Part shown: one piece after another, positions 241-64,000 of the stretch
Numbering within the stretch: the first letter of the stretch is position 1
Layout: each line of letters opens with the position of its first letter
Assembly: GCF_023343835.1 (NCBI RefSeq)
Contig: NC_064434.1
Location: forward strand, 9,343,505-9,407,504
Direction of reading: 5' to 3'
From: Lagopus muta
Lineage: Eukaryota; Chordata; Aves; Galliformes; Phasianidae
DNA: 64,000 bases
Notes under the pieces: model-generated
What the model was told of the DNA's origin: nothing
Database searches by the model: none
What the model saw: the letters and a program-made list of their open reading frames with translations, nothing else
Position numbers and translations under genes: made by a program

Positions 241-263
241 TACTTCATCTTTGTTTTGCAGGA
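241..263 (+). other. 3' splice site just before the Rho start codon
   Basis: A pyrimidine-rich run ending in TTTTGCAG (AG at 260-261) is followed by GA and the ATG. This is a good acceptor and implies that the single coding exon is preceded by a noncoding 5' exon outside the window. Bases 1-240 would then be intron; I see no other feature in them. Confidence 0.6.
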
Positions 264-857
264 ATGGCTGCTGCTAGGAGGAAGCTTACAGTAGTTGGAG
301 ATGACTGCTCTGGTAAGACGTGCCTCCTCTTCGCTCTGCGTCACAATCAGCTCCCCGCATTCTACGAGCCAACCCTGTTTGACACATATGCCACTGACGT
401 AGAGGAAGATGGGAAGGAGATGAAGCTGTTTCTGTTTGACATGTCAGGAAAAGATGAAGCCAGCTACCGAAATCTCCGCTCGGTGTTCTATGAGGACACC
501 AACATTATTTTAATATGTTTCTCAGTGGACAGGCCTGACTCACAGCAAAACGTCCTTGACTTTTGGGTTCCAGAAATCAAACTGTTCTGCCCCACGGTTC
601 CTATTATTTTGGTGGCTACCAAGATTGAACTGAGGGATGATGAAGCTATCAGGAAGAAATTAGCTGCTCAGGGCTATGAGCCAATTAACACTGTAGAAGG
701 AAAAGCTTTAGCAGCCAGGATTGGGGCATACGCTTACCTGGAGTGTTCTGCCAGGACAAAAGAAGGTGTTGATACCGCCCTGCAGATAATTAGCCAATGT
801 GCATTAAATGAGAAAAAGAGGAGAAAGAAGCGCCAAAGGTCCTGCCAAATTTTGTAA
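264..857 (+). CDS. Atypical Rho-family small GTPase, RhoA/RhoB-like, probably GTPase-deficient
   Basis: A 197-residue open frame reads as a full-length Rho GTPase (RhoA is 193). Residues 1-13 and the switch I core (Y34, P36, T37, F39, Y42) align with RhoA/RhoB without gaps. The P-loop reads GDDCSGKT at 12-19, so RhoA G14 is D. The G3 motif reads DMSGK at 59-63 in place of DTAGQ, so the catalytic glutamine is K63, and two residues are inserted before the next conserved arginine/leucine. The G4 motif is TKIE (119-122) instead of NKKD, and G5 is CSAR. The Rho-specific insert helix is present, followed by a lysine/arginine-rich tail and a CQIL CAAX box, which predicts geranylgeranylation and membrane attachment. 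Rho proteins switch actin and adhesion signalling. By analogy with Ras G12/Q61 mutants and Rnd proteins, this one should stay GTP-bound; that is inference. The intact frame argues against a pseudogene. The start is the first ATG, two bases after a 3' splice site. It is not canonical RHOB, which is far closer to RhoA. Confidence 0.85.
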   Translation: MAAARRKLTVVGDDCSGKTCLLFALRHNQLPAFYEPTLFDTYATDVEEDGKEMKLFLFDMSGKDEASYRNLRSVFYEDTNIILICFSVDRPDSQQNVLDFWVPEIKLFCPTVPIILVATKIELRDDEAIRKKLAAQGYEPINTVEGKALAARIGAYAYLECSARTKEGVDTALQIISQCALNEKKRRKKRQRSCQIL

Positions 858-3029
858 GAGGCACAAATATTATTTTGTTTTTAGTTTTCATTATGTGGAA
901 GAGTGAGGTGATGTCTTTGATGCTGCTGTGTGGGCGCTGTAAGGGCTTTTGTGGTACAAGATGGAAAAAACATTTATGTGGATGGAAAGTCTGCCAAGTC
1001 TCTCACTTGAAAAGTTGGATTTGTTTCCTTCTCCAAAGCAGGCTGAAGAACACAATTCCAGGTTCGAGCTGAGCACAAGTCTTGAGAAATGGAAATGAAC
1101 AAGCTACAGTTCTTCACAGAGCTGTCTTGGTCAAGGGACATAATATGCAGACTGGGACAATCATGAGTGCATGGAGGTCAGTGAATCTAATCATGACTTC
1201 CTGGTAATCATGACCTCCTTTGGTGGCAAGCAGCTGTGCTGAAAAGGTTTACTAGTATGCACTCCCTTCTGTGCACTCCCTTCCATACACTTCTTTGAAG
1301 GACGCCCTTAGGGAATAGAATCACTGCACAGAGCTCACATACTCATGTATCCAGCGTCTGCCCTGCTAATGGGAGTGGCTTTCTGACTGGCAGAGCAGGT
1401 CTAACTCTTCGCAGGATTCATTCACAGATCTGACCTGGCTTGGTTCCTTGAATGCATTAGGGATGCAATGTATTGTATAGGGTGCAAGGAAGGCAGTGCT
1501 ATGTACTTCTTCAGGCACAGGTAAATAAGTTTACCCAAGGAAGTGGGGTAAAGCAGCCTGGCTCTGAGTTAAGATCCTTAACAGAATTCTTACCTTAAAA
1601 TGAGAGAGGCAAAGAGACCTGACTTCAGTGTCTAAAATTCTTTAGAAATCTCCGTGGTTTGAGCGTATCTTAAATCTTCCTACCTTTCCTTAGCACTTGC
1701 AGGCTGAAGACATGAAATAAAAGGAATGCTGACAGCTACGCTCTCTGCTTTGCAAGTCATTGACAATTTGGAAAGAGACTAAAACATGCTGTCAACCTCA
1801 GCAGAGAATCTCAGGGAAGCACAGAGACGAGGCAAAAAGGAACGACTTTGGGTGCACCTCCATACTCTTCCCTTCTCCGAAGCACTCTGCTGCCAGCCCA
1901 AGAAACTGATTTATGGACTGACATTAAAGGTGCAAGTGTGGGAGACAGAAGATAATGTAACTATGGGATTTGGAGACAGATGCTATAACAGGAAATGGAC
2001 ATAAAAGTTTCAAAGGTAAACTCTGATAAAGGGACAGGACTAATTGAGCATAACTGTTGTGAACTGGGAGAATGTGGAAGTGCAGTACTTTCTTTCACTG
2101 ACTTACCTAGTGGTGGTTTCATCACTCAGCAGCTTGTCTAAAGTTTCCCAGGGGAAAACAAGACTAAACACAAAATGTTACGCTGATTGTGCAACCTGCA
2201 GCTGTACCCTTAGCAAACTAGTTTTCCCAGACCTGGTAAAATACACACTTCATATTTTAATTGCCCATTCTTCCCACCAACATTTGTCTATTGATGGTAA
2301 CGTGGATAGAAATGCCAGACTTGGCCAGGTATTATTGAGTGGGTTGCTGCTACTTCTTAGCAGTAGGTTTGAGTAACAAATGCTTTAGGATGATGCTTTA
2401 CATTTCCAAAGAATCTCTGAGCTCTATTCAACTTGAATTACGAATCCATCTCTTGGTGATAAAAAAGTGTTATTTCCATTTTCAAAACTGAGAAACTTAA
2501 ATTGTTGCCTAAAGTAAGTGTGAACCATCTACTACATGGAGTTCCTGTTTTTCTTGACTCATTTTCTTCACCTTTTCCCTTTTCCCTCCAGAGACAATTT
2601 TTCACCTTGATTTCTTCCCCTCTGTGTAATAATCCCCTCTATGCAACTTGATATTGTACACAAATTTAAAACCGTTTTCCCCTTCCTCCTTGGATGTGTG
2701 TTCTGTGCATAAGTGCTCTACAGATTCAGGCAGTGACATACATTAGTGCATTTCAAAGAGCTGTGTTTATGTAGATAGGTTTAAATTGTTATTTCCATTT
2801 TATATGTGTGGGTGAGGAGGATTAGACTGCAGATAGGTGAAAGAACACAGGTGTTTCATATGCTTCTGATGTAGGGTATGGAGAAAGACCACTTTGCAAA
2901 GATGCTAAGCACTGAGCGCTACCACTGCTTGGAAAGCACAACCACTTTGGTGAATCTGAGGTTGCACTGCCTGCTGCTTAGTAGGATATGGGTCAGCGTA
3001 TTGACTGGAATCTCTTTTCAATCCAAGAA
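858..3029. other. Rho 3' UTR candidate and intergenic DNA
   Basis: No coding exon recognised. The first ~860 bases may be 3' UTR. The open frames at 1786-2004 and 2044-2376 show no family resemblance and no splice context. Confidence 0.5.
1716..1721 (+). terminator. Candidate poly(A) signal for the Rho-like gene
   Basis: This is the first AATAAA after the Rho stop codon, which would give a 3' UTR of about 0.87 kb. The downstream sequence is only weakly GT-rich, so the assignment is tentative. Confidence 0.3.
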
Positions 3030-4055
3030 AACAAGGAGTTTTTTCTTGCAGAGGGTGCTCTGCTCAAGAAAAGAGTAGCTGATCAATGGCTGTATGTCCA
3101 AGTGGAGCTGAGTCACAAGTGGTGTCCCTCTGGGGTCCATCTTGGATGGTGCCCTTCAGCACCTTTATCAGACCAAGGCAGTGGGATCGAGACTGTCCTC
3201 CTTATGTTTGATGAAGACAACCAAGCAGAGTGCTGCAGCTGATCAAACAGCAGGAAGGTATGGCATCCAGAGGGACCTGGACGGGTTTGAAAAGTGGGCC
3301 TGTATGAACATAATGAGGTTGGAGCAATCCCAGGTCTGAGTACAGACTGAGAGAAGAACTCATTGAGAGCAGTGCTGAGGAGGAGGACGGGGGGGTTCTG
3401 GTGGATGAAGAGCTGGACACACACCAGCAGTGTGCTTCTGCAGCCCAGAAGGCCAGCGGTGTCCTGGGCTGCAACAAAAGAGGGGCAGCCAGCAGGGAGA
3501 GAGACAGGAGCATTTCCCTTTGCTCTGCCCTTGTGAGGCCCCGTCTGGAGTGCTGTGTCCAGGCCTGGGGGCCCCAGCACAAGGAAGGCATAGAGCTGTT
3601 GGAGCAGGTCCAGAGGAGGGCCATGGCGGTGGTCAGAGGGCTGCAGTACTTCTTCTGTGAAGAAAGGTTGAGGGAGATGGGCTTGTTCAGCTTGAAGAAG
3701 AGAAGGCTTTGGGGAGATCTCATGGCAGCCTTCCAGTACTTACAGGGAGCTTGTAACTGGAGGGAATGACTTTTTACGCTGCCAGATAGTTATAGGACAA
3801 GGGGGAATACTTTAACTAAAAGTGGAGAGATTTAGGTTAGAACATTAAGAAGAAATTCTTTGCTCAGAGGGTGATGAGGCACTGCCACTGCTGCCCGGAG
3901 GAGCTGTGGGTGCCCCATCCCTGGAGGTGTTCAAGGCCAGGGTGGGCCCTGGGCAGCCTGAGCTGGTGGATGGCAATCTTGCCTGTAGCAGGGGGTTGGG
4001 ACTGGATGATCTTTAAGGTCCCCTCCAACACAAGCCATTTAATGATGCTATGAAA
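3030..4055 (+). mobile_element. CR1 LINE fragment, 3' kilobase with end of ORF2
   Basis: The sequence follows the CR1 sense strand from the C-terminal part of the reverse-transcriptase ORF (frame around 3401-3769, ending in the conserved [12 protein letters not shown]-like stretch) through the 3' UTR (CTGGAGGTGTTCAAGGCCAGG) to the terminal CCATTTAATGATGCTATGA. The reading frame is broken, and this is a 5'-truncated dead copy. Confidence 0.9.
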
Positions 4056-17200: not shown

Positions 17201-20200
17201 TTCAGCTGGACCTGGGCCGTGGGGCTGTGGCAGCCTGGCCACTGTTAGGCCAATGGATTCAGCCCTGCCTAACAAGACTATTTAAAAAACAAATCTAGGG
17301 AAGTTCCGAACATCAGTGTCACCTTGCAATTGCTGTGAAGAATATAAAGTTGCCCAAAGCAAACCAGATGTCCTTTTTGATTTCTTACCATATGACCTTC
17401 CCTTGCAGCGATGTAGCACACGCGGCCTCCACTAAAGAATGTGCCATTGGATGAGCCAAACGTAGACAGTGCCACTGACAGGGAGATGATCCATGCCCAG
17501 TTACCCAGGACTTTGTTCCTGAGGTGAGAAAGAATTTATGGCACAACATCCAGCTCGCGAGTGTACTGAATATTCATCCTAGAACCCAACAGCTCTCTTT
17601 ACTCCATTATTCTCATTGAACATTTTTTTCCAAGCTTTTCTACTGATTGAAAGCCTTCTCCTCACTCCCATAATATTTAGTTGCTAGGAACTTTGTCTTG
17701 TCTAGAACAAGCTTTTCTTCCTGCCTGGTGTATTTCCACCTAAATCTGTCCACACCGTAATGGTGGACACACAAAACTCACTGTTTTATGCGCATTTATG
17801 TTGCATGACTCCAGCAGATACTGCATTTACAGCCAACAGTATAAGAATGGAAAATGCAGAAAGGCTGTTATCACCATTAGAATTGTGTGGCATGAAGCCA
17901 TACGTACGCCTTTTCAGTATCACTTATCCCAAATATTCGAAAATCAACAGCTGGGCTTCCCAAAACTATGGCAGTTGCTCCCGTGCCACAGTCACTTCAC
18001 AGTTTACAAGTTTATAGTTCATAGTTTACACATATAGTTTACAAGTTTACTGTCCAGGTTACAGGCCTTCTGGATTTGGGTTATTAAGCCATTTGCCACA
18101 GTCAGAACTGAACATTTCCTTGTCTCGAAATGATGGAATCTGAGCACCTCTTACAATTGCAGGACTCCATTGCCTCAAGTCAGCAGTGTTTCTCCCTAGC
18201 AATCTTCTTTGTTTGAACAGGTTACAAAGCCTCACTGAACTGCCTCATGAGCCTTCTCTGCACTTCCTTTCTCACCACTCCCAATTAACACCTAATTTGT
18301 GAGCCCCCTCCTTTTTGACGCATCTTCTTTCCCTTCCTGATTCATCTTTTCACCCCAAAAGTGAGCTCAGGAGATTCAACAAATCCAAGTGCAAAGTCTT
18401 GCACCCAGGTCGAGGCAACCTCCACTACCAATACAAACTGTGAGATTAAAGGATTGAGAGCAGCCCTGCTGAAAAAGACCTGGGGGTACTGATGGATAGG
18501 AAGCTGGACATGAGGCCTCACAGCACAGAAAGCCAACTGTATCCTGGGCTGCATCCAAAGAAGCGTGGCCAACAAATCCTACCCCTCTACTCTGCACTGG
18601 TGAGGTCTCTCCTGAAGTACTGCATCCAGATGTGGAGTCCTCAGTATACAAAAGACATAGACCTGCTGGAGCGCATCCAGAGGAGGGCCACAGTGATCCA
18701 AGGGATGGAACATCTCTCCTATGAGAACAGGCTGAGAGTTAGGGCTGTTCAACCTGGAGAAGTTCACCTGATAGCAGTCTTTCATTATCTAAATGGCAGC
18801 TACAAGGAAGAAGGGGATAGACTCTTTAGCAGGGTCTGTGGTCACAGGACTAAGCAAAATGGTTTCAAGCTTAAAGAAGGTAGATTTATGTTGTATATAA
18901 GGAAAAATCTTTTACAGTGAGGGTGATGAGGCACTGGAACAGATTGCCCAGAGATGTGGACAGGCTGGACCAGCCTCTGAGCAACCTGTTCTAGCTGTGA
19001 ATGTCCCTGTTAATTGCAGGGGAGTTGGACTAGATGGCCTTTAAAGGCTCCTTCCAACTCTAAGGATTCTGTGATGCTTATGGAGGAATAAATGCACTTA
19101 AGTGCGATGTGTCCTCCTCTGGCTTCTTTATGCCTCTCATTTCCCTCCTTAATGGCCGAAATGGCTGCACCTCCTGTCACCAACCACAGGGAGCACACCC
19201 TCCTCAGCCCATGGCCATCCACCTGTCCTCAGGGCTTCCGGGTGCTGCTGAGATTCCTGATTGCTTCTTCAGTGCTTCTCCTTAGTTGTGTTTTTGGGGT
19301 GAAAAGATGAATCAGGAAGGAAAAGGAGATATGTCAAAAAGGAGGGAGCTCACAGATTAGTTGTTAATTGGGAGTGGTAAGAAAGGAAGTGCAGAGAAAG
19401 TTCATGAGGCTGCAGTTTAGTGAGGCTTTGTTACCTCTTCAAACAAAGCATCAGACCTTTAAAAGTCTTTGTAATTACATGAAATGCTGTTAGAGAACAT
19501 ACCTAGCAAGAGCTCGTTTAGATAAGCTGAAGGTGTTGTGAAAAGCACACAGCAGCAAAGCTGCTGCTGACTTTTTAGGGAGAGAATGAGCAGCAACATA
19601 ATCTCTGGATATAATGTGTCATGGTTTCTGCCAGCCAACTCACTGGGGAGATCATGGATTCTGTGTCTTAGAAATACTTAGGCTGAAGTTGGGTGTTCTG
19701 GTGGAAGAGCACCTGGTTCAAAGCCATCGCTGCCTATATTTCTCACGAAGGTCCTTTCCTTCCTATCCTAAAACCCTCGGTGTTCAATACCACCAAACTG
19801 ATTCTGTGGAACAGCTCAGGCTGACGGAAGGTGCAAATAGTTTGTAAGCAGATGGGGAAACTGAACCAACGCGCTTTTGTCTCACCCCCAAATCACCGTC
19901 ACTGCATTTGTGGGGCAGCACGCTGTCCTCTCCACTTCTCTGCAAAACATAGGATATATGTATGGATATATATCTGGATATGTATCTGAGCTGGGCTTAT
20001 GTGAGAACAGCACCTAAATCTCCCAATATTCAGGGGAGAACCTGTGTTTTGCTAGACCACATGGGCTGTGTTACCACAGGCAGAGCTCACCCCCAGGTGA
20101 CGGCCACAGCTCCTGAAGTCAGCAGCTCAGATGGAGCCATGGCCGCAAAGTAGCTGATGTTTACCAGCAAATACAGGCATGTAACCAAAGGAATAGCAAT

Positions 20201-22365
20201 CATCACAGCTCTGGGAAGGGTCACCTGGGAAAGGGATGACAAGAGTGTTAGATGCAGCATGTTTACGCTGTTGTTTTGTCTTTGCTATGAACTGAAACAC
20301 ATTTGCTCACAATACTTTTCCCAGACTTATACCCAGATTCATAAGGAAGTTTTTACACCAATCTCCCGTACTATTAGGCTGTACATTTCAAAAGCTGTTC
20401 CTCAAAATAAAACAAATCATATTCAAAACATTTTGCTTCATAGATGCCCAGGAAGTCTGTTGCACACTTGTTGATTATTTTCATATTGGTTCATTTGCTG
20501 CGTATGGCTCCTGATGTGCTGCATCTCTGCACGAACATCCGATGGAAATGGGTGAAAAACCAGTGTGTGCTGCATCCTGTGTAACAGCACAAGGGAAATC
20601 TGCTCCAGGAAGGAATTATTTTGTTCTTAATGACAGAATACCACCTGTGTGCCCACAGACTACTTTAAGCTGCATCAATATCAGTAACTACTGCTTCGTG
20701 CAATTGAAAGAATGAGAAAAGAGCACCTAGTAGTCATCTCAGAGCCATTTTCTATTTAAAAAACATGAGATATCCATTTTTGTATTCCCCACTCTTACTG
20801 TAGGACAAGATAAGGCAATTCCTTATGTTGTTACCTCCACCCTGTCCAGGTCTGAAAATCAGTACACACAGTCCTGTGGGAGAGAGTGCCACGTGATTCT
20901 AGGATCTTTGCTTCCATTTAGATTAATATTCAACTGTGCATTTCCATTTAAACTGTAAAATCTTGCACACTGCACTGGCAGAAAGTGCAAGGTATCCATG
21001 CTGTGCTCACACAGCTTGACGGTGCTGTGGTGTCCCATCTGTGATCTGCACGGCACAGGGAGGGCTGATGTGAGATGCAAGTGAGCTACTTCAGTGCCTA
21101 CAGCATGGACCAAACAATGCCTAGAAAATAGATGATTAAAAACAAGGGTTGTTCAGAGGCTTAGATTCCCTTATCAGTGAGGCTCGGCCTGCTCTGGTTC
21201 CCCTCCATGCAATGAGGAGGGACAAGTGCTTTTCTGAAGCACGCATTACAGATTAGATCTTTTGAGGAATATGTGGTATTGAGAAACCATTAGCAGTAGG
21301 GTGGCTGCAGCACTTTTCTGCATAAATCTGGATATCTGGTGTGAGATGCTCTGAACTCTGAGGAAACTTCAACACCCAACCACCTAGAAGCTCTTTCTCC
21401 AGCCACTGAGATCTGGTAGCACTTTCTTCTGGATAGGCTGCTCTTTTCCTTTGAGCCTCATTTTTGTTTGTCCTGTCACGTTTCCAGACACATCCATAGG
21501 TGTCCTGCCCCACTACAACAGCAACAACAAAACAGCAGTTTTTCCCTGATGCCCTATCCTTCAGTTACCCACAGCAGCAAATTTGCATAACCACTGGGCA
21601 AATACAACGCAGCTCACTCACCTCAGGGTTCTTCAGTTCCTCAGTTACGTAGTTCAGGTTGTTCCAGCCATCGTAGGACCAGAGCCCCTGATAAAATGCC
21701 ACTCCGATCGTCCCAATACCTGCATTTGTGCCTTGAAAAGCATTCTGAAAGCTCTGAGTCTGCCCGTTGGCAAGCAGCACCAATCCGCCCACCACAATCA
21801 CCAGCAAAGCCAAGAGTTTGGCAGCTGTAAAAACATTCATAACAGACATCGCCAGCCTCACGTTGAGGCAGTTGATGATGGTTAGGACCAGGATGCAGGC
21901 AGCAGCTGTACATTTGATGACAACCTGCGGGGATGAGCATCCTTGGTAGAACGGCGCGACGGCGTATTCGGCAAAGCTCAGACAGACAGCTGCCAACCCA
22001 GCTGGTCTCACCAGGATGACAGAAGTGTAGGCGAAAAGAAAAGCAGGAAAGGAACCAAAGATCCTCAAGATGTAAATATATTCGCCTCCAGACTCTTTGA
22101 TCACGGTTCCAAGCTCAGCGTAAGACAGGGCTCCGAACGTGGCCAGCAGACCACACGCTGCCCACATGAGCAGGCTGCTGGCGGGGCTCCCCATGTGATG
22201 CAGCACCCACTCAGGGGACATAAAGATTCCCGAGCCTATCATGGTGCCTGCAATTAATGACACTCCGCTAATCAGGCCGACCTCTTGTTTCAGCCTTAAT
22301 TTCTCCCTTCCTTCACTCGGATCTGCGGATGAATGAGGCGAATCTGATGTTTGCCTTCTCCTCAT
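14042..22365 (-). CDS. SLC7A15: SLC7 light-chain amino-acid transporter, b0,+AT/arpAT-like (six coding exons)
   Basis: Joined exons 22365-21622, 20224-20091, 17518-17389, 15787-15663, 15252-15165 and 14275-14042 give 1455 bases, 484 residues plus stop, with every junction in phase and GT-AG. The product aligns end to end with b0,+AT (SLC7A9, ~487 residues) and should have 12 membrane helices. Visible marks are the unwound helix 1 motif GSGIF (44-48), the light-chain signature [17 protein letters not shown] (71-87), SGGEY (92-96), and C143 in APFYQGC. C143 sits where b0,+AT has the cysteine that disulfide-links to the heavy subunit (rBAT or 4F2hc). Such proteins are plasma-membrane amino-acid exchangers. 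Placement beside PUM2 and the b0,+AT-like sequence suggest SLC7A15 (arpAT, aromatic-preferring), a pseudogene in humans. Family assignment is firm; choice of member rests on synteny recalled from memory and could be wrong. Confidence 0.82.
14876..15025 (-). mobile_element. CR1 LINE short fragment
   Basis: Reverse-strand CR1: GGCCATCTAGTCCAACCATCAGCC, then CTCCAGGGATGGTGGCTCCA and CAGGCAGCCTGAGCCAGTGC. The tail and body ends are missing. Lies in the last transporter intron. Confidence 0.75.
15165..15252 (-). CDS. SLC7A15: SLC7A15-like coding exon 5
   Basis: Acceptor TTTCCAG, completes the split serine, then [20 protein letters not shown] to RSYK before GTGAAG. Matches SFAAWLFYGLTILGL of b0,+AT (helix 10). 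Confidence 0.87.
15663..15787 (-). CDS. SLC7A15: SLC7A15-like coding exon 4
   Basis: Acceptor TTGCAG, then [20 protein letters not shown] and on to SIVTYF plus two bases, donor GTGAGC. Corresponds to the helix 9 region; an NFT sequon lies in the loop. Confidence 0.87.
16466..16850 (-). mobile_element. CR1 LINE 3' fragment
   Basis: Starts CATAGAATCACAGAATACTTAAGGTTGG and continues in reverse CR1 order to AGGTCTCCCCTGAGCCTTCTC. Lies in a transporter intron. Confidence 0.88.
17389..17518 (-). CDS. SLC7A15: SLC7A15-like coding exon 3
   Basis: Begins with the last base of a split codon, then [20 protein letters not shown] and on to YIAAREGHM, donor GTAAGA. The [11 protein letters not shown] segment matches the helix 8 core AANGTCFTAGR of b0,+AT. 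Confidence 0.88.
18207..18360. repeat. Left arm of a ~155-bp inverted repeat
   Basis: Reads CTTTGTTTGAACAGGTTACA to CATCTTTTCACCCCAAAA. The reverse complement of 19292-19448 matches it over its whole length with about 13 substitutions and one 3-base gap by eye, roughly 91% identity. It abuts the 5' end of a CR1 copy at 18361. Confidence 0.9.
18361..19076 (+). mobile_element. CR1 LINE fragment between inverted arms
   Basis: Sense CR1 from ATTCAACAAATCCAAGTGCAAAGTC in ORF2 (frame at 18492-18920) to the 3' end TTCCAACTCTAAGGATTCTGTGATG. It is 5'-truncated exactly where the left inverted arm ends, and the ORF2 frame is broken. Confidence 0.9.
19292..19448. repeat. Right arm of the ~155-bp inverted repeat
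   Basis: TTTTGGGGTGAAAAGATGAATC to CTCTTCAAACAAAG, inverted relative to 18207-18360. About 215 bases of ordinary sequence separate it from the CR1 3' end. Confidence 0.9.
20091..20224 (-). CDS. SLC7A15: SLC7A15-like coding exon 2
   Basis: Acceptor CCCAG, then [20 protein letters not shown]... to AVTWG, 44 codons plus two bases, donor GTGAGC. Matches the helix 7 region of b0,+AT (PLVTACYILMNVSYFTVM). Confidence 0.85.
21622..22365 (-). CDS. SLC7A15: SLC7A15-like coding exon 1
   Basis: Codes residues 1-248 in one uninterrupted block, from the cytoplasmic N-terminus ([10 protein letters not shown]) through about helix 6, ending TEELKNPE before a GTGAGT donor. The chosen ATG has A at -3 and lies seven bases after a CAG that can act as acceptor. 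It leaves 29 residues before GLISG, as in b0,+AT. The frame stays open a further 50 codons upstream, but that part does not look like the family. Confidence 0.85.
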
Positions 22366-22515
22366 TGTGGACCTGTTAGGAGATGTTTCTTCAGAGGCAG
22401 TACGGAATAAGACTGAGTCATTTGAATAAGAACCACCTAAGGTCTTGAAGGTTAAGTTAATAATTATAAGAGTCACACTGTTAAGGAATGGACATGCTCT
22501 TCCCCTGTTTTGCAT

Positions 22516-31697: not shown

Positions 31698-34600
31698 ATG
31701 GCAAGTCAGCCTCCCTGCATTTTGAAACAACAGGATAGCAACGAGAAAGTCCAAAATTGTGACTAGCAGCAAAAATTGTCATAATTCAGCTGAGCATTTC
31801 TGTTGGTTCTAACATGAAGCATTCTCATTTGTACCGCCTACTGTGCCATGCCAGTTGAAAGCTAGTACAATAAACAAATAAGTAATCCAAGGTGGTCTTC
31901 ATTGAAGAAATTTAGTGTTGCACTGGCAAGGGAAACAAATGGAACCATTCTGAGCAGCACAGCAGAATGGGCTTTCAGAAAACTGATAGCACGGCTGCTG
32001 TCAAATGGTTTACAGGAAACACACTAAAGGAAAGCCTTTTTGTGCCAGTTTTTGTGCTGTTAAATGGAAAATTTGAAGGATGCTAAAGTAACTCAGAAGA
32101 GTTCTTCCTGTTACATTCACGGAAAATAGCTCAAAGGTGTGTGCATTTCAACATTAAAATCAAGTACTTGCATACATTGGGTCAAATGTCTCTGTATCAG
32201 GAGGTTTGAGGCAGGAGTAGCCTATGAAGCTTCAGGCAGCATTAGTGCAAGGAGAAGCTGCAGCAGAAGCTGCATTAATGAACAGGCTGCGTAGGCAAAA
32301 GCAGCTCTGAGTTAGTGTGGTGAGTGGCCATGGAAAGTCTGTGTTTGTAAAGCAAAGGTGAGGAAAAAGGATGTGTGGGTGGGAAAGTCCCTCTGTGCAA
32401 AATCTACAGTGTGTAAGTAATGCGCGAGGCCCCAGGGAGAGGCTGGCCCAAAGGGATGCCGGGGCACTGGGCTACAGCTCTTATCTCAGTACACACTCCT
32501 GAACATCACAGCCACTGCTGGTCTAAAACATGAAATACCAACCCACAGCCATGCATTTAGCAATGAATCTTGTGCAGGTGGTATCTCAGGTTTTTTTTAA
32601 TTAATTAAGAGTATGCCTGTTGACAAAGTGGAATCCAGAACTGTGCATGAGCTGCCAGAGGTACTATGCGGCATGTGGGATAATTAATAACTTTATCAAA
32701 ACAGGAGCTGCTCCTGTGAACTCACAAAGCATTCATCTGAGTCAGCACTTCTCTCGTGGAGATGTAGGTAACAAGGGTTGTGCTCGGGGGATGTCCTGCC
32801 ACTCCAAGGCCCTGCTCTGGAATGTGGACAGATAGCTCTAATCAATTTGGATCTGCAGTGCTGTGCAGCCTGAAGGTGGTAGGTAGTGAACTGTGGCTCT
32901 TATTTCAGAGGCTGAGCAAGGCTCACCCTTTTATGACTGCTCCTCATGGGCAGCAGGATGGTGATTAGACTGCAAGCAGGGCTGAGACAGAGGTTCTTGA
33001 GTTCTTCCCTGCAGCAGAGGACAGACAAAGCTGTGTCTGATTTTCATGACTCTGTAAGGAAATCAGACCTGCAGGTCTCGAGTGAAGAAATCAAATCTAG
33101 GGGCCCCCAGTCCTTGAGATGTAGGGGGGTTAACATTGGCTTAAAAGAGCACAGCTTCACGTAGGGACTTGCATCTTTTCTAGAGATGCTTTGAGAAGGT
33201 CTACCGTATCAATTTATTTAATTTCCATGGAGAAATGCCTTTGATTTAATTAAGTCTGGTTAATTATTTGCCGCCATGCTAGGTCTAACAGCATGATACG
33301 TCAGAGACGCTGAGGACGTGCGCCTCCTGGCACACCGAGAGAAATTTTGTTCACATGGAGAGCTTTGGGTCCTGACGTTTGTGGTTTTGGAAAATGTAGG
33401 CACCAGTCGGATTAAACACCGGCTGAGCGGGATAGTTAGGACTGCAGCTCCTTGATTAGGGAACTTGCCCAAGTTGCACAGCAAGACTCTGGAGGAAGGC
33501 AGCAGCACCCTGATTTTCACTATCCTTGGCTACTTCTCTAAACTGTGGGCCATATATTTGGATGGCATTGAGGATGCTCATTCACAGGAAAAAAAAAAAC
33601 GAAAACAAAAAACCAACCACAGCCAGACTATGTTTATCAGTGCTTATCAGAAACATCTGGAGTGTGAGCAGAGCCCAGTCGGCTGTTAATATCTCCTTAA
33701 CAAAAAAGAAATAGATAAGAAAAGCATTTTGTAATGGAGCAATACTAAGTTAAAGTATGTCAAGCATTAAGTAATTTTAAATTTTCCACTCAGAGGAAAA
33801 GATAAAGACTATTCTTGAACTTTTTTAACGTGAGACAGAACTTCAGTGATACCATTAGACTGTGCTGTGTGTGGTTATGGAATTTACTCTCTAGAAAAAT
33901 TATTAAGAAAATAACAAAGCAATATTTCTCAGATCAAATCCTGAACCGTTTCCACTTAAACAGGGTTTTCCAGTACTGAGGAGCAGACTGATTCAGAAGT
34001 CCTTCAAGCTTATCATATACATGTCGAATTCCTCCTGAACACTGAATGCTTCATACACGCGCTTTGCTGCTGATCAGAATTACCCAGGATAGACCGGGCC
34101 TCCAGAAGGGTCTGAGTTGGTATAATACAGACCAGCTGTTGCAGCTGCCTGGGACAGCAAGAACAGCCCCTGCTTGCAGCACAGGCTGTGACTCGGAGGC
34201 CGACTCAGAGGCCTCCTCTCCTCCAGAGAGCAGAGGAAGTGGCTCTGCAGCCCTGCAGACAAAGGTGGCAGTGGGACAGGACACAGGATCACAGTGATTA
34301 GCCGGGCGTCTGGCTGCTTAGCGTTAAGCTGAAATCATTTTCATTTCTTAGGAAAACATTTATCAGGAAATGGGAACTTTTATGCCCCCAGCAGCGAGTT
34401 TTTCCTTCAGGATGCCTCTACGGAAGCAGTTGGCGGGCAGACCTCTGCTCCCCAGCAGGCCACCCCAAAGTCCCTGCTCCCCATCGATGCGCTGCTGTCC
34501 TGTTGGGCACCACACGAGCCCCAGGCTGGTGGACAGGCCTGCTGTGTGCAGGAGGAACTGGGGCAGCAGCGCTGTGCAGCCTGCTGGGACCGATAACGGG

Positions 34601-34834
34601 GTCCCACCCTAAGGTGTGATCTAAGGATGGCTTCCCGAGTGCCCTGCAGCCAGCCAGGCTTAGCGGACCTGCTGAGGAGGCAGACAGCATATTTCCTCGT
34701 GGAATCTGCGTTTTGAAGTGACACTGACAGGCTGGGCCCTGTGTCCTACGAGAGAAATGCTGCTGGGAATAATTGGGGTTGTAATTCAGCGTGGCCGACA
34801 AACCCCACAGCGAGCTGCTGTTGGGAACCTGTAG

Positions 34835-34900
34835 TAGCAGGGGGCCGGAGTCCATAAACCCCAGAGGTCCCTTCCAACCCTGCCATTCTGTGGTTCTAGC
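34835..34900 (+). mobile_element. CR1 LINE terminal scrap
   Basis: AGAGGTCCCTTCCAACCCTGCCATTCTGTGGTTCT is a CR1 3' terminus in sense orientation. Confidence 0.7.
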
Positions 34901-35267
34901 AGTGCTTACTGACTGCAAGGCAATGATGTATTTATCAACAGCTGTATCTGAGGTCGCGCATTTCACGTTCTCGGGGAAGAACTAAATCCTCCCACGGCCA
35001 TCACACACAGGCACATCAGCCAATTAGTAACTCCGGCCACGCGTGTACTGTTTACTGTATGAACAACGCGCCTTTCCCCGCTCCGCGGCCTTCCTTTGGG
35101 AAGCCGATAACGTCGAAAACCTCCCGGGAGAAGCGACGGCCACACAGCCCGAGGGCAGAGCGGCGAGGGCCGCTCCGAGGGGAGGAGGGACGCCGGCGGG
35201 CGGCGCACGCGCGGTGAGCGGCGGAAGGGGCCGGGGGCCGCCTCCCCGCCTCCTCCCGGCGTGGGGC

Positions 35268-35277
35268 GCGCATGCGC
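35268..35277. promoter_or_regulatory. NRF-1 binding motif
   Basis: GCGCATGCGC is the perfect palindromic NRF-1 core. It lies about 100 bases before the likely transcription start region. Confidence 0.6.
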
Positions 35278-35370
35278 TGTGGCGGCGGCAGGGGCGAGCG
35301 GCGGCGGTGGCGGCGGGGGGAGCTTTGCCGCGCTCTCGCTCTCCCTCTCCCTCCGCGCGCGCCCTCCCGC

Positions 35371-35379
35371 CATGTTGTT
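35371..35379 (+). promoter_or_regulatory. YY1-type motif with embedded minimal uORF
   Basis: CCGCCATGTTG matches the YY1 core GCCATNTT that often lies just inside transcription starts. If transcribed, its ATG opens a three-codon uORF (ATG TTG TTG TGA). Confidence 0.45.
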
Positions 35380-35526
35380 GTGAGCCCCTCGCGGCCGAGG
35401 GGGGGGGGGAGGGGAGGCCGGAAGGAGAGGCGCCGAGAGGAGCGGGGGGCGGCGGGCGGGCGGCGGCGTCCCAGGGCCCGCTCCGGCTCCGGCTCCGTCG
35501 CGGCGAGCGGCGCCGCCAGCCAGCCC
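35380..35526 (+). other. PUM2: PUM2 noncoding first exon (5' boundary uncertain)
   Basis: GCCAGCCAGCCC is followed by a near-consensus donor GTGAGTAG at 35527. This fits a 5' UTR exon spliced to the coding exon at 53550. The start is a guess from the promoter motifs; a transcript end map would fix it. Confidence 0.5.
35418..35424 (+). promoter_or_regulatory. ETS/GABPA-type motif
   Basis: CCGGAAG in the CpG island, a common partner of NRF-1 and YY1 sites in TATA-less promoters. Confidence 0.35.
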
Positions 35527-35742
35527 GTGAGTAGCGGCGGGGCCGCGCGGGGTAGGCCGCGGGCGGGCGGAGCGGGCGGGCCGCCCCCCTTCTTTCTTCC
35601 AGCCCCCTTTTGTCTGCGGCGAGGGAGGGGAGAGAGGGCGGGAGGGGGCCATGTTGCGGCGGGGCGGTGCGGGGCCTGCGCGGCGGGCTGGCCGCCTTTG
35701 TGTGCTCGCGGCGCCGAGGTGGGAGCGGGCGGCGGCGGCGGC

Positions 35743-35775
35743 GGGAGGGGTGGCGGGGCGGGAGCGGGGCGGGGG
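35743..35775 (+). other. G-quadruplex-capable run
   Basis: Six runs of three to five G separated by loops of one to four bases, just inside PUM2 intron 1. The RNA would carry the G-rich strand. Confidence 0.5.
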
Positions 35776-36130
35776 CTTTGTTCGGGCCGAGGCAGCGCCG
35801 GCGGCTCGGGGCTTTGTGATGAGCGCGGCTGTGGGGAGGGCGGGACGAGAGGGCTGCCGCCGCTTCCGCGCCGCGAGGGCTCGGGCTGTAATCGTGCTTC
35901 GAAACCGGCGGCGGTAACAGAAGTCGGGGCGGGCGGCCGCCGTCGTGCGGGGCTGCGCGGCGTTGCGCTGCGCGGCGTTTCGCTGCGCGCCCGGGGCGGC
36001 TCTGCGCCTTGCCGCGCTCCTGCCCGCCCCCGCGGCGCCGCGCTCTGACGGACGGTGCCGGCAAGGCTTTGTCCGCCGTTCCCGGAGCGCTGTGTGAGCC
36101 GCTGCCGAACGAGCGAAACTTTTCCTGGCC

Positions 36131-39100
36131 GCCTTATCGTTGTGGCTTTACGTGCGGCGTGCGAACAAAGCGCACGGAGATCTCTTTTAGTTTCTCTTTT
36201 CTTTGTTGCCTCCCGGCTCTGTGCTTCGGTTGTGCGGGATACCGACGCGTTGCGTGTGTATTTACCGCCTCGCGTCCCCGTTTTCGTAGATAAAACGCGC
36301 CGTTTCTGTACGATCGGCGTCTCTGGGGCCAAAGCGTCGCCGACACGTGCGGCTGTGCCGAGAAACAGAATTATTTTCTACTTCCCCGTGACCCGCAGCT
36401 CAGTCCGTGGCCGTGCGAGAGCGGATGCGTTCTGTTGGTGGGAGAAGGAGGCGCGGAGCAAAAGGGAGATGGGAATTCGGCGATGTGCTTCGGCTGTGTG
36501 TGTAGGAACGGCGCTGAATCAGCTGATGGCTCTCCCAAGTGTGCAAAGAGTTCGGAATCTGGAATTTGGCCCAGCAAAGTGGTTAGAAGGCAAATGCGTG
36601 TGAGAAACTGCTTGATAGTGCTGATAGTTCTATAGTTTAATATGTGGAGGTTGCATCTAGGGAAGTAATATAGGATTTGAATAGGGTTGTTGTTGTTTTT
36701 CCAGCATTAATTGGAAATAGCTTTTCTAATTAATTTCTGTAGTATCATTTTGCTACTTAATGTTTTTCTCCAGCATTCGGGGTGTCAACACAGAGCTGAG
36801 GTCGCTGTAACCATATCTGATGTCGTGGTTGCCACCACGCGAGGCTGTTGACTGAAAAGTTGGACTTGCCTATGTTGCAGTGAGAAGTTGTCTCTTACTG
36901 TGGCAGCGTGTATTAAATGTTATGTAGGGTTGTGATGACATGAAATGCTGCACGTGTGTTTGCCTCATAGTTTGCCCTCGGGGAAGTTCCTTAGGGCAGG
37001 TGCTTGGGGTGAGCATATGAGCAGGACGTCCCCTTGTTGAGTACAGGGGGCTGGATGGGGTTTGTGAAAGCATTTTCTACTTTGCTCTTAGACTTCTTTT
37101 GCTTGCTGAAATGATATATGACTGCACACAGAAACATCTGCAATAGGGAGTTTCGTAAAAGCTTTCTCCTTGATGATTTCCATTCTTTGTACAGTGGTTT
37201 ATAAGTCTCCAGCGTGATTAGAGCAAGTTGTTGTAAACAGAGGCAGATGACCCAGGAGATGGTTTAAATACCTGCCTGTATGTCTTCACGCCTTCTTTGA
37301 TCGTGGAAGGACAAAACACTGCACTGCCCATTGCACTGAAGAGAACCCTAAATTCTCTCGTGTTCTTTCTGGGTTGAGCCCTCCTGTGAAATGAGCGTTA
37401 ATGCACTGGAGTTTCTTCAGGCTTTATAAGTGCTTCTCATTGCATGTATCATACGTATAGGTATGTGAAAACTTTATCAAGCTGCTGCTTTCTCTTCTCT
37501 TTGGCAGATGTAGTTGGAAATGCATACTTAGCCTGATGTGGATTTTCCCCACCCATGACATAGCACTGTGATTGTTGTGCACAGTTGCAGCACTGTCACA
37601 CAGCCAGTGACAAGATTGTCGTCCTGAAGTGGCACGAGAAGTGTTTTTGTGTAAGGTTCCTTTATCCTTTAAGAACAAATACAGCTGTGCAGTCATTTCT
37701 GGTGCTTCTAACCATGAAGTCAAAGGCACTTCACCTTCCTTTGGTAGGAAGGAGTTTTAAATGGCATCAGAAGATGAAAATGTATTCAGTTCTGCCGTCT
37801 GCGATGTAATTTCAAACACGTTGCATTCAGTTGCTTTACAGTAATGGCTTGGATAGAGAAGCATGATAGCCAGGTTTAGTTTAAATCCCACTCAGAATAC
37901 ATGCTGTGCCTTTCAGGTTAACAGGCAAGTGCTTTCTGAGTTGCTTTGGAAAATGTTTGCCCTACAGATGAGGGCCAGGTGTTACCTCTGGGTGTATCGG
38001 TGAAGATTTAATTTCATTAGTGGTGAATAGATTCTTCTCCTGAATGTGCTGGTTTAAGAGCAGCTGTACACTTACAGAAGAAATGTGTCTGAAGGTGTTA
38101 CAGTGACAATCTCCAAAATGAGAACAAGTATCTCTGTAGTAACCCGAACTTCAGATTTCTGCATCTGGTTCTGCATTTAAGTCCCAAACTTCCGAGTGTC
38201 AATGCATGGATCTGTCCTGTACAGGCTGTGCTGTTTTTCCAGTGTGTATTTGTGTATAAATTGCTGCAAGTAATCCAATTTTGTACTTTTTCTTCGAAGT
38301 TACCATATAGTTTTAAGGTAGGCTTCCTTTTGCACTGGCAGAGCTGTCAGTCACAGGTGGTAGAACCTCAGTTGTCTTTCTGCTGCAGAGCTCCCTGCAT
38401 GTAAGTCCTGATGGAAATGAAGGCAATATCAGGCTGCCTTCTTGGACGTCATTCTTTAGTTTTCATCCACGTTATTGTGAGGAATTTTTTTTCAAGTATC
38501 TCGCTGTTCATGTCCTCTATGATATGCATTACTTAAGGTAGTTCCATGGATGCTGGATGAGCTTGTTGTGTGGTGTAAAGAAGTTGCAGAAGTGATTTGA
38601 GGAGCTTTGTTTTGTCAATAAGGTGCATATGTACCACAGCAGTGAAAGCAGTTCTTATGTTACAGAGACACTTTTATTCCACTTTATTAATGTTCATCCT
38701 CCTCCATCTGTCTGCACTTGCACACACACACACACATATTCCCTAATGGTTGGCCATACAGCAGTGGAAAAGTAGGTGTGGAGGGATTAGAGGGCTGTAC
38801 TTCCTTTTGTCTGCATCCTCTCATCTAGGTGTCCTTGTTCTGATTCAGCAGCTTTCCACATAAGTCAGTCCTTATTGTTTGGATGTGGCACTCCTGCTTA
38901 GCACAAAAAGCGAGAGGTTTCTCGGCCTTGAAAATGGAAGTCATGCAGCTTGTTAGCACAGAAAGTACATAGTTAAAACTGCAGAGAGACTTGGGGTTTT
39001 GTGTTTGCAGTTATCTAGTTCCTCAGGACATACTGAAAGATTGATAGCACATTGGTTACAGTGGACATGTGTGCAGATCACCGCGTATCCAGGGAGAAGC

Positions 39101-56600: not shown

Positions 56601-59600
56601 TACTAGATTAAATGTAGAAAGTGTTGAGCACAAGGCATGTTATCAGAGCAAGATGTTGTAGTTACTGCTGATTTTTTTCTTCTCTGTTGGAGAAGAACAC
56701 AGTTCTTGTGTTTGAAAAACACATTTTTTGAGTCTCCAATGAGGTAATTGACAGCTGCCACAGCTGCTTCTTTATATGGCAATCCAATAGCTAAAAAATC
56801 CCTTTGAATGGACATAGTATGTCAACCCATCAACACTCTCTCTCTAAAAAAAACAAACAAAAGCCTAAAAATCCAGGTCACTCCTCCACAGGAAGGCACA
56901 GATTATAATCTTTAAGAATGTCAGTTTCTCTAGATAGTTGAGGGACTTTTTGTTACGTAAAATTTAATCAAAAATGTCTCCATGAATCTGTTCAGCTTTC
57001 ACTGTAGCCTCCTGAGGTACAGGTGATGCATTATGTTTATTTGGAAGCTTTACTGTCAACCAGAAAACATAAGGCAACAAGAAGTTGAATGCATATGTTT
57101 GGAAGTTAAAAGCATTCAATTTAGAACAGAGAAAAACACATACATAAAATACAACAGAAAAGGAAGTACACAACCTTTTGCCTGTGGTCACTGTTGTGTC
57201 TTTTTATCAGTGAACAATTTCTTCCTGTAATAGGAACTCTGAAAATGAATTTTGAAATCAGAATTGCAGTGTGTTCTACTTCCGTCTGCTTATTGCTTTC
57301 CACTGCTTCATCTGAACATCTGTCTGATAGTGGAATTAAGAAAAAAAAAATAATATATATATATATATATATGTAAACTGTAATTGAAGGTAAGCATACT
57401 GGAAGCTACATGATGATTTGATGAGACCCAAGGTATTTTTGTTCTGACCTTCACTTCCGTGTTTCTCATCTCTCTCACCTCAGCTGGAAGTACCCTTGAA
57501 CTTCTGATGGACTGTACTTACTATGAGGTGTGGTTCTGTTTCCCTATAAAAGGCTCTGCAGATAACAGAAAAGGCTTTTTGTCTACCTCTGTACGACAGA
57601 GTGAAAAAGTAGTACTACTGCAGAATTGGTACTACGCAGAGCTGAGAAATATTAATAGATTTTCTCAGTTTATCTGTAATATATCATCTGTTGCTTTTTA
57701 GTTGAACTGTAGTTTTAAGATTCCATGAATCTTCTTCTAAATCCTCTGATGGCAGACTTCACCCAGTTCTTAAATTTGTGGTAAACTCAATATTCTGGTG
57801 CTCCCAGGGCATGTTTGTTTGACAGCTGCTGGTGGTTCTCCCACGTACTGAGAAAAAGCACCTGTGTCACTGCTGCAGTACTGCAGGCATAGAACTCTTC
57901 CATAGGTGGTTTTGTGAAGTATTGACTGTTGATCTTCTTCCATCCACCAGTTCTTCGGTGTTACTGAATTCTTTATGTAAGGAACACAGGGATTTCAGTA
58001 TCTAGTTTAGCTAAACATTTTTCTGGGGATCATTCTTGTAAACTAGGAGACATCAATCAGCAATCCCTGCGTTGTTCGAGAGGAGCTTCCTTCACCTCTC
58101 TTGGTTTTGTGGCCTGCTAATGGCAGTCTTACCCTCTTCTTTAAGCAGTTTTTACAAACTCTCTCAAAGCTACATTAATAAAAACCTAGGAAAAAAAATC
58201 TTGTTAGTAGCTTCATCAGGGCTCGTATTAAGCAGCTGTGATGTTGAATGATTTTTATCTGTCAGTTAAATAACAGGAGAGATTCTTGTTTGTGTGGTAC
58301 TTCTGTAGTTTTGCACTGTCTTCTGGTCTTGAAATTATTATCAAGATATTATTATATCTTGAAAGAAATTATTCTGTTACTGATTTGACCTGCAACTTTG
58401 CTTAGTAATGAATAGTAATAGTGATGAATAGAATCATACATCTATATTAAATGACTGGCACTTGAAACTTCAAATTTGATGGTCACCAGTTTATGATCAG
58501 GAGATCCATGTGGTCTAAAGGAGCGGACTTGTCACAGTGCAAGTCAGTTGCTTGTTGAAATCTGGAACATAACTCCTTTCTTTCTGTCTCTCACAGTGGT
58601 GCTGGTTAAAGGCCCAGCTTCTGAGCCAAAATGAGGAGACCATGCAAAGTTCCAGGTTTCTGAGAGGATTATTTGTTCAGCTTTTTATCATAACTGGTTA
58701 TGTGTTCTATATCTCTTCCTTGTACCTTCAGGATCAGCCTTGTTGCAGTCATTGGAGCAAATTCTTAATGCATCATCAGCTTCAGTAACAACTTCAGGTG
58801 TTTTAATTATTCAGACTACGTGTGCTTTCTCATGTGAAGCTGACTTGGGTATCTCTAAAACAAATTGCCCATCATCTTAGTTGTGTTGTTAATTTTTGCC
58901 TATTTGTAATCATTTTATTAAAAAGACAATTTTCTCACACAGCTTTTACCTGCCAAAAAGTTTTGGGAACCTGATGATTCAGCAAAAGATGGACAAAAAG
59001 GGATATTCCTTGGTGATGAGTGGAGAGAGACTGCATGGGGAACTCCTCGTAAGTGATAAACAGATACGTACTGAAAAATTGATTACTTGGTATGTGTTAT
59101 TTTAAAGTAAAGCAGTATACTGTTAGATATCCATGTAATGAATTGGGTTTTACTTTTGTTTTAATTGTGTATAGCCCTGGTGATTGTATGCTAATAACAC
59201 TTTTGGAAAGTGGGATTTTGAATTAATTTATTTTTCAGCTTCTTTGATACCTCACCTGTAATGAAATGCACAAATATTGCAAGTTGTATTCAGAAAGTAC
59301 AATTGTGATATTTTTGTTTGTTTCAACAGACCATTCTATGTCCCAGCCTATTATGGTACAGAGAAAGCCTGGACAGGGTTTTCATGGAAACAGTGAAGTA
59401 AATGCTGTATTGTCTCCACGATCAGAAAGTGGTGGCCTTGGAGTGAGCATGGTAGAATATGTGTTAAGTTCCTCTCCAGCTGATAAATTGGATTCCCGGT
59501 TTAGGAAAGGAGCTTTTGTAAGTAACACAGCGTGTTCAGCTTATGTAGTTACGTGCTATGGTCTTAGTGATTTACAGGGTTATTTTTTCTATGTGGTTTG

Positions 59601-63976: not shown

Positions 63977-64000
63977 GTTAGTATTGGATTTCAAAGCATG

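Follow-up and report, generated by a model that had tools for sequence, protein, structure and literature searches.

The window analysed here, 64,000 nucleotides of Lagopus muta, carries near its left end an open reading frame (ORF) of 197 codons plus a stop, without interruption, that encodes a Rho GTPase, and further along it holds coding sequence of an SLC7-type transporter and of PUM2. The features at the locus are as follows.

248..262, plus strand: splice-acceptor-like site, TCTTTGTTTTGCAG followed by G, with its AG at 260-261, two bases 5' of the ATG
264..857, plus strand: Rho GTPase coding sequence, one exon, intact, 197 aa, stop at 855-857
813..839, plus strand: polybasic tail KKRRKKRQR
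843..854, plus strand: CaaX box CQIL, predicted to be geranylgeranylated
1716..1721, plus strand: candidate poly(A) signal, the first AATAAA 3' of the stop
21621..22515 (reading frame open over 21565-22515), minus strand: SLC7-family light-chain coding exon, ending at a GTGAGT donor
59326..59511 (approximate limits), plus strand: PUM2 coding exon, by similarity to human PUM2
63659-64000: further PUM2 coding sequence, by similarity to human PUM2

The product of ORF 264..857 is a Rho protein, as a sequence-only reading of this DNA had proposed. In a phmmer search of solved chains, 209 distinct sequences matched at E <=1e-10, and among the best 60 of the 209, which were inspected, RhoA, RhoC and RhoB ranked first (E about 1e-58), their matches spanning residues 1-196, 1-197 and 1-183 of the protein, respectively. 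Pfam assigned a Ras domain (1.5e-31) and gave only Ras, Roc and Arf models, with no BTB domain in the protein. The ORF thus combines a Ras-type G domain, a Rho insert and best matches that are Rho proteins. The insert, read earlier as intact, aligns without gaps to that of RhoA, and the CQIL prenylation box is likewise whole at the C terminus; its last residue, leucine, predicts geranylgeranylation. A single-sequence AlphaFold2 model was unusably low in confidence (mean pLDDT 43.3). A collection of viral contigs yielded two pattern matches, neither of them confirmed, and a phage collection held no relative, neither collection being meant for vertebrate genes.

The exon start at 262 suggested by the sequence-only reading fits the acceptor-like AG at 260-261, which is among just 7 of 4842 plus-strand AG sites, itself included, that score equally well or better on a position weight matrix. 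Because this site stands two bases before the ATG, a 5' non-coding exon upstream of the ORF is likely. CpG observed/expected was 0.44 in the coding sequence, against 0.12 in bases 1-262 and 0.18 in bases 858-3000; the GC contents of these three segments were 0.47, 0.36 and 0.42, respectively.

The nearest solved relative of the minus-strand SLC7 exon is b(0,+)-type transporter 1 (E 7.6e-88, residues 51-297 of 298); the exon probably belongs to SLC7A15, a gene that is a pseudogene in humans. The ORFs at 59.3 kb and 63.7-64 kb we take to be PUM2 on the basis of the human sequence; Pfam found no family in either. A CpG-rich stretch at 34000-38000 (GC 0.66 and CpG o/e 0.86 in 34001-36000; GC 0.48 and o/e 0.80 in 36001-38000) is likely to be the PUM2 promoter. 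Fragments resembling CR1 retrotransposons, at 3113-3769, at 18376-18920 and in other short ORFs, are presumably CR1 pieces typical of sauropsid genomes and, like the order of the genes, point to a bird or other sauropsid. Syndecan-1 has both RHOB and PUM2 as conserved neighbours in human, mouse and chicken (PMC1464127), so the presence of PUM2 in the window places ORF 264..857 in the region of the RHOB locus. No second Rho gene, RHOB included, was found in the 64-kb window by tblastn with the ORF 264..857 protein (other matches E >6). The ORF and PUM2 lie on the same strand; human RHOB and PUM2 are divergent, and if RHOB has the same orientation in this genome, the ORF 264..857 copy would be inverted with respect to it.

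We compared the protein with a panel of 15 Rho proteins, comprising 14 of the 20 human members (RHOBTB1/2, RHOJ, RHOV, RAC2 and RAC3 lie outside it) and Drosophila Rho1; six of the panel sequences were verified against solved chains, with a single-residue difference in RHOC. Identity was highest to RHOB (50.0%, 96/192), followed by Drosophila Rho1 (48.4%), RHOC (48.2%) and RHOA (47.7%), with all remaining panel proteins at 42.4% or lower. The Rho alignment and tree that the earlier reading had proposed as a check, built here with IQ-TREE on this panel, put the protein in a clade with RhoA/B/C and Drosophila Rho1 (97/97). That clade was unchanged when RhoA columns 14, 30, 61, 63 and 120 were removed and again when columns 14, 15, 30, 120 and 59-75 were removed. 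The branch leading to the protein is long (1.41 in the full tree, 1.2-1.4 changes per column across trees).

Placement with RhoD/RhoF was rejected by the AU test in three column sets (p 0.0047, 0.0077 and 0.0039). Membership of the Rnd or RhoH family, in place of derivation from RhoA/B/C, would account for the serine at RhoA position 61 and the asparagine at R68 that the protein has in common with Rnd1-3, and a Rnd clade survives two of three AU tests (p 0.068 and 0.061). The same test falls to 0.032 when the columns of switch II and of the pocket are removed, a RhoH clade is rejected in all three column sets (p 0.029, 0.035 and 0.026), the RhoA/B/C clade is recovered at 97/97 in three trees, and PUM2 adjoins the gene as it does RHOB. 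Rnd ancestry is therefore disfavoured, and to descent from either family we attach almost no credence. The claim that the protein is distinct from Rnd and RhoH accordingly stands in full for RhoH and, given the two AU tests that keep the Rnd clade, less firmly for Rnd.

Within the RhoA/B/C clade, the best trees pair the protein with RHOB at supports of 54/23, 73/37 and 60/52, and RHOA or RHOC as sister gave AU p values of 0.22 and 0.21. At nine columns where RHOB alone departs from a residue common to RHOA, RHOC and Drosophila Rho1, the protein matches RHOB in four, the others in two and neither in three. The sequence thus also allows an origin from RHOA or RHOC, but the PUM2 neighbourhood and the uninterrupted coding sequence (that of RHOB lacks introns) tip the balance towards RHOB, and the gene is probably a local RHOB duplicate.

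Residues were called from a 16-row alignment and a codon table of the ORF. The changes in the switch regions and nucleotide pocket are listed below.

303..305, plus strand: codon 14, GAC, aspartate at Ras G12 / RhoA G14
351..353, plus strand: codon 30, CTC, leucine at Ras F28 / RhoA F30, the fast-cycling position
444..452, plus strand: codons 61-63, TCA GGA AAA, serine at RhoA A61, G62 kept, lysine at RhoA Q63
459..464, plus strand: two extra switch II residues, A66-S67 as aligned, their exact placement ambiguous
471..473, plus strand: codon 70, AAT, asparagine at RhoA R68 / Cdc42 R66 (RhoGDI contact), as also in Rnd1-3
627..629, plus strand: codon 122, GAA, glutamate at RhoA D120 / Cdc42 D118, making the G4 motif TKIE

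Replacement of the P-loop glycine by D14 and of the catalytic glutamine by K63, the two-residue insertion in switch II and the TKIE motif had all been seen in the sequence-only reading, and each is borne out by the alignment; it had overlooked A61S, R68N, F30L, T60M and the D120E change that lies within TKIE. The G5 motif CSAR is present as described but is no departure from the norm, since RhoD has SAR too. Switch I, which had been called intact, does keep F39, Y42 and T37, but it differs from RhoA by F30L, V35E, V38L, E40D and N41T, of which E40D gives the residue of Rac and Cdc42. Serine at A61 is the residue of Rnd1-3. The residues that hold Mg-GTP (K18, T19, T37, D59 and G62) are unchanged, and the protein also retains the G4 lysine, the G5 alanine, F39 and Y42 of the effector loop and the cysteine of the CaaX box. 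Because the classical residues G14, A61, Q63 and R68 are D, S, K and N here, ORF 264..857 is related to the RhoA/B/C subfamily without being a classical member of it.

Eight classical Rho proteins agree at 73 columns, and the ORF 264..857 protein departs from them at 20 of these; G14D, F30L, A61S, Q63K, R68N and D120E are among the departures. That all six of these deregulating positions are changed has a hypergeometric probability of 2.3e-4, for a set picked after the alignment had been seen; the same six positions show five changes in Rnd1, five in Rnd2, four in Rnd3, three in RhoH, two in RhoU and none in RhoD or RhoF. Among the 30 columns invariant across all 15 panel proteins, the protein differs at six. 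T60M and D120E lie in the pocket; V9T, L72V, F171L and A174I lie outside the nucleotide contacts, have no place in the always-on account and could reflect relaxed constraint.

Substitution at Ras positions 12, 59 and/or 61 is a mark of the GTPase-deficient Rho proteins, a known class comprising Rnd, RhoH and RhoBTB (PMC9029563 and PMC13236570), and all three positions are substituted in the ORF 264..857 protein. The GTPase deficiency of RhoE is ascribed to these three positions in PMC9029563, which gives aspartate at Ras 61 of RhoE; the solved sequence, DTSGS, has serine there, and we used the latter.

Table 1 of PMC6678527 supplied a list of mutants independent of the analyst's choice. At its GTPase-defective, fast-exchanging and RhoGDI-defective positions, five of six are changed (G12, Q61, F28, D118 and R66; P29 is unchanged), against none of five at its nucleotide-binding-defective, effector-loop and CAAX positions (T17, T35, F37, Y40 and the CaaX cysteine), a split with a chance of 6/462 by hand arithmetic. 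Two rows that are not point mutants were excluded, namely an insert-domain deletion and Rac1B, in which exchange is raised by an addition of 19 residues following switch II (same source); by comparison, the ORF 264..857 protein keeps the insert, and its two extra residues sit within switch II. Support at G4 comes from D118N, whereas the change here, D to E, is conservative.

Mutants of relatives suggest what these substitutions would do together, and each step that follows draws on them. Since the phosphate- and Mg-binding residues K18, T19, T37, D59 and G62 are kept, the protein would be expected to bind nucleotide. With G14, A61 and Q63 replaced by D14, S61 and K63, it would be expected neither to hydrolyse GTP nor to respond to GAPs; an ion pair between D14 and K63 above the gamma-phosphate is a speculative addition. 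L30 and E122 would bring quick nucleotide exchange without a GEF. Cellular GTP is in large excess over GDP, and this excess, rather than tight binding, would keep the protein GTP-loaded. F30L is the standard fast-cycling mutant of RhoA and hydrolyses GTP normally (PMC11941300), F28L reduces the guanine affinity of Ras, and Cdc42 D118N raises exchange, by less than F28L does (both in PMC6678527). The earlier proposal of a GTPase-deficient, GTP-loaded Rho agrees with both the sequence and the tree, and it gains strength from A61S and R68N; 'locked' is too simple a word for the state, because F30L and D120E predict weaker holding of nucleotide and fast exchange.

With N70 the protein may bind RhoGDI-1 poorly, Cdc42 R66 being important for RhoGDI binding although R66A altered cell responses only marginally (PMC6678527). 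Freedom from every GDI does not follow, because RhoGDI-3 binds RhoB, Rnd2 and RhoH (PMC8253491), and RhoB itself is already rated weakly GDI-bound and atypical in a review (PMC13236570). A geranylgeranyl group on CQIL, together with the polybasic tail, would hold the protein at membranes, and E40D, N41T and the enlarged switch II point to a set of effectors shifted from that of RhoA. The dose of the protein would then be set through transcription and turnover.

We considered two other readings of the same residues. In one, the protein is a working Rho under ordinary GEF and GAP control that still cleaves GTP through a modified catalytic mechanism, in which K63 or the lengthened switch II, for instance, stands in for the glutamine; switch II does gain two residues alongside K63, and transfer from Ras point mutants is uncertain, but three hydrolysis positions are changed together, in the same columns as in Rnd, and the RhoGDI-contact residue R68 is changed as well, which makes this reading very improbable. 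In the other, D14, L30, M60, K63 and E122 cost so much affinity that the protein is a nucleotide-poor pseudoGTPase, serving Rho effectors or regulators as a scaffold or sponge that carries a prenyl anchor. The lowered guanine affinity of Ras F28L and the raised exchange of Cdc42 D118N (PMC6678527) speak for it, as does the change of T60 and D120, each invariant in 15/15 panel proteins. Retention of K18, T19, T37, D59, G62, the G4 lysine and the G5 alanine would be needless in a protein that binds no nucleotide, and D to E is conservative; we hold a pseudoGTPase to be unlikely, if worth keeping in view.

Compared with RHOB, 86 of 180 sites are changed, and the changed sites fall in columns that are more variable among the 11 panel proteins other than RhoA/B/C and Drosophila Rho1, to an extent matched by 0 of 20000 permutations. 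When RHOB was allowed to decay neutrally to 50% identity, at assumed mutation and indel rates, the frame remained free of stops in 6/1000 and 15/1000 runs (two starting GC3 values), and 0 of 2000 simulated copies escaped both stop and frameshift. These permutation and decay tests show that most of the divergence of ORF 264..857 arose under constraint. Both a chance ORF and an old pseudogene were rejected on the matches to RhoA, RhoC and RhoB (E about 1e-58), the 0/20000 permutations and the 0/2000 intact decayed copies.

Recent death is a subtler case, in which a long-constrained gene has become a pseudogene with its frame still whole. Decay from the present ORF with indels allowed leaves the frame intact in 464/2000 copies after 12 neutral substitutions and in 46/2000 after 30, and with substitutions only in 683/2000 after 30 and 117/2000 after 90; the changes at the invariant columns V9, L72, F171 and A174 would also suit it. 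Yet such a death could hide only about 5% neutral divergence at the assumed indel rate, or about 15% ignoring indels, the overall pattern of change is a constrained one, and the splice acceptor and CaaX box are intact. We regard recent death as decidedly unlikely.

The explanation that we favour, with rather more confidence than doubt, is that ORF 264..857 encodes a functional, fast-evolving Rho that belongs with RhoA/B/C, arose most likely by local duplication of RHOB, and would be GTP-loaded without GEF or GAP and convergent with Rnd. More tentatively, and here with slightly more doubt than confidence, we propose that an always-on Rho was born once more and independently, from RHOB, through a Rnd-type hydrolysis lesion combined with F30L/D120E and an altered RhoGDI contact, that it was thereby freed of GAP, GEF and perhaps GDI, and that selection retained it in a sauropsid lineage.

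With RHOB, and with RHOA and RHOC, the protein shares its clade, length class, MAA start, Rho insert and a CaaX box ending in leucine, and with RHOB in particular an uninterrupted coding sequence and the PUM2 neighbourhood; it differs in being only 50% identical to RHOB, in G14D, F30L, A61S, Q63K, R68N, D120E and the two residues added to switch II, and in a polybasic tail that lacks the extra cysteines of the RHOB terminus CINCCKVL. Rnd1, Rnd2 and Rnd3 (RhoE) are likewise changed at Ras positions 12, 59 and 61, with the same serine at 59 and the same asparagine at R68. In contrast to them, the protein falls outside the Rnd clade in the best trees, has neither an N-terminal nor a long C-terminal extension and ends in CQIL, whereas Rnd proteins end in CaaM and have neither leucine at F30 nor glutamate at D120. 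RhoH is also short and changed at Ras 12 and 61, but it is 34% identical, its pairing is rejected by the tree, it has other residues (S and N) at those two positions, and it shows a gap in the insert region of the alignment; a six-residue C-terminal insert is described for it in PMC13236570. The laboratory mutant RhoA F30L has the leucine that occurs naturally at this position in ORF 264..857, but the mutant hydrolyses GTP normally (PMC11941300), whereas the hydrolysis residues are changed here too. As its clade differs from those of Rnd and RhoH, the Rnd-like state would have been reached independently of both, and relative to the known GTPase-deficient Rho proteins what is added would be the exchange-raising changes and this separate origin.

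Among the matches listed in a search of titles and abstracts of open-licence literature, none described an avian or sauropsid RHOB-like GTPase; a 'GTP-binding protein RhoB-like' appears in a paper on salmonid sea lice (PMC8225872). A predicted gene record for ORF 264..857 may exist.

If the favoured explanation is true, ORF 264..857 would be a natural experiment by which a classical Rho became permanently active, the positions that mutagenesis marks as deregulating having changed together and those for nucleotide binding, core effector contact and prenylation having been kept. If these features are kept in orthologues, the gene would mark a convergent path to the Rnd state that can be dated and that probably began at RHOB, and it would allow a test of whether GAP, GEF or GDI is dispensable for a Rho protein.
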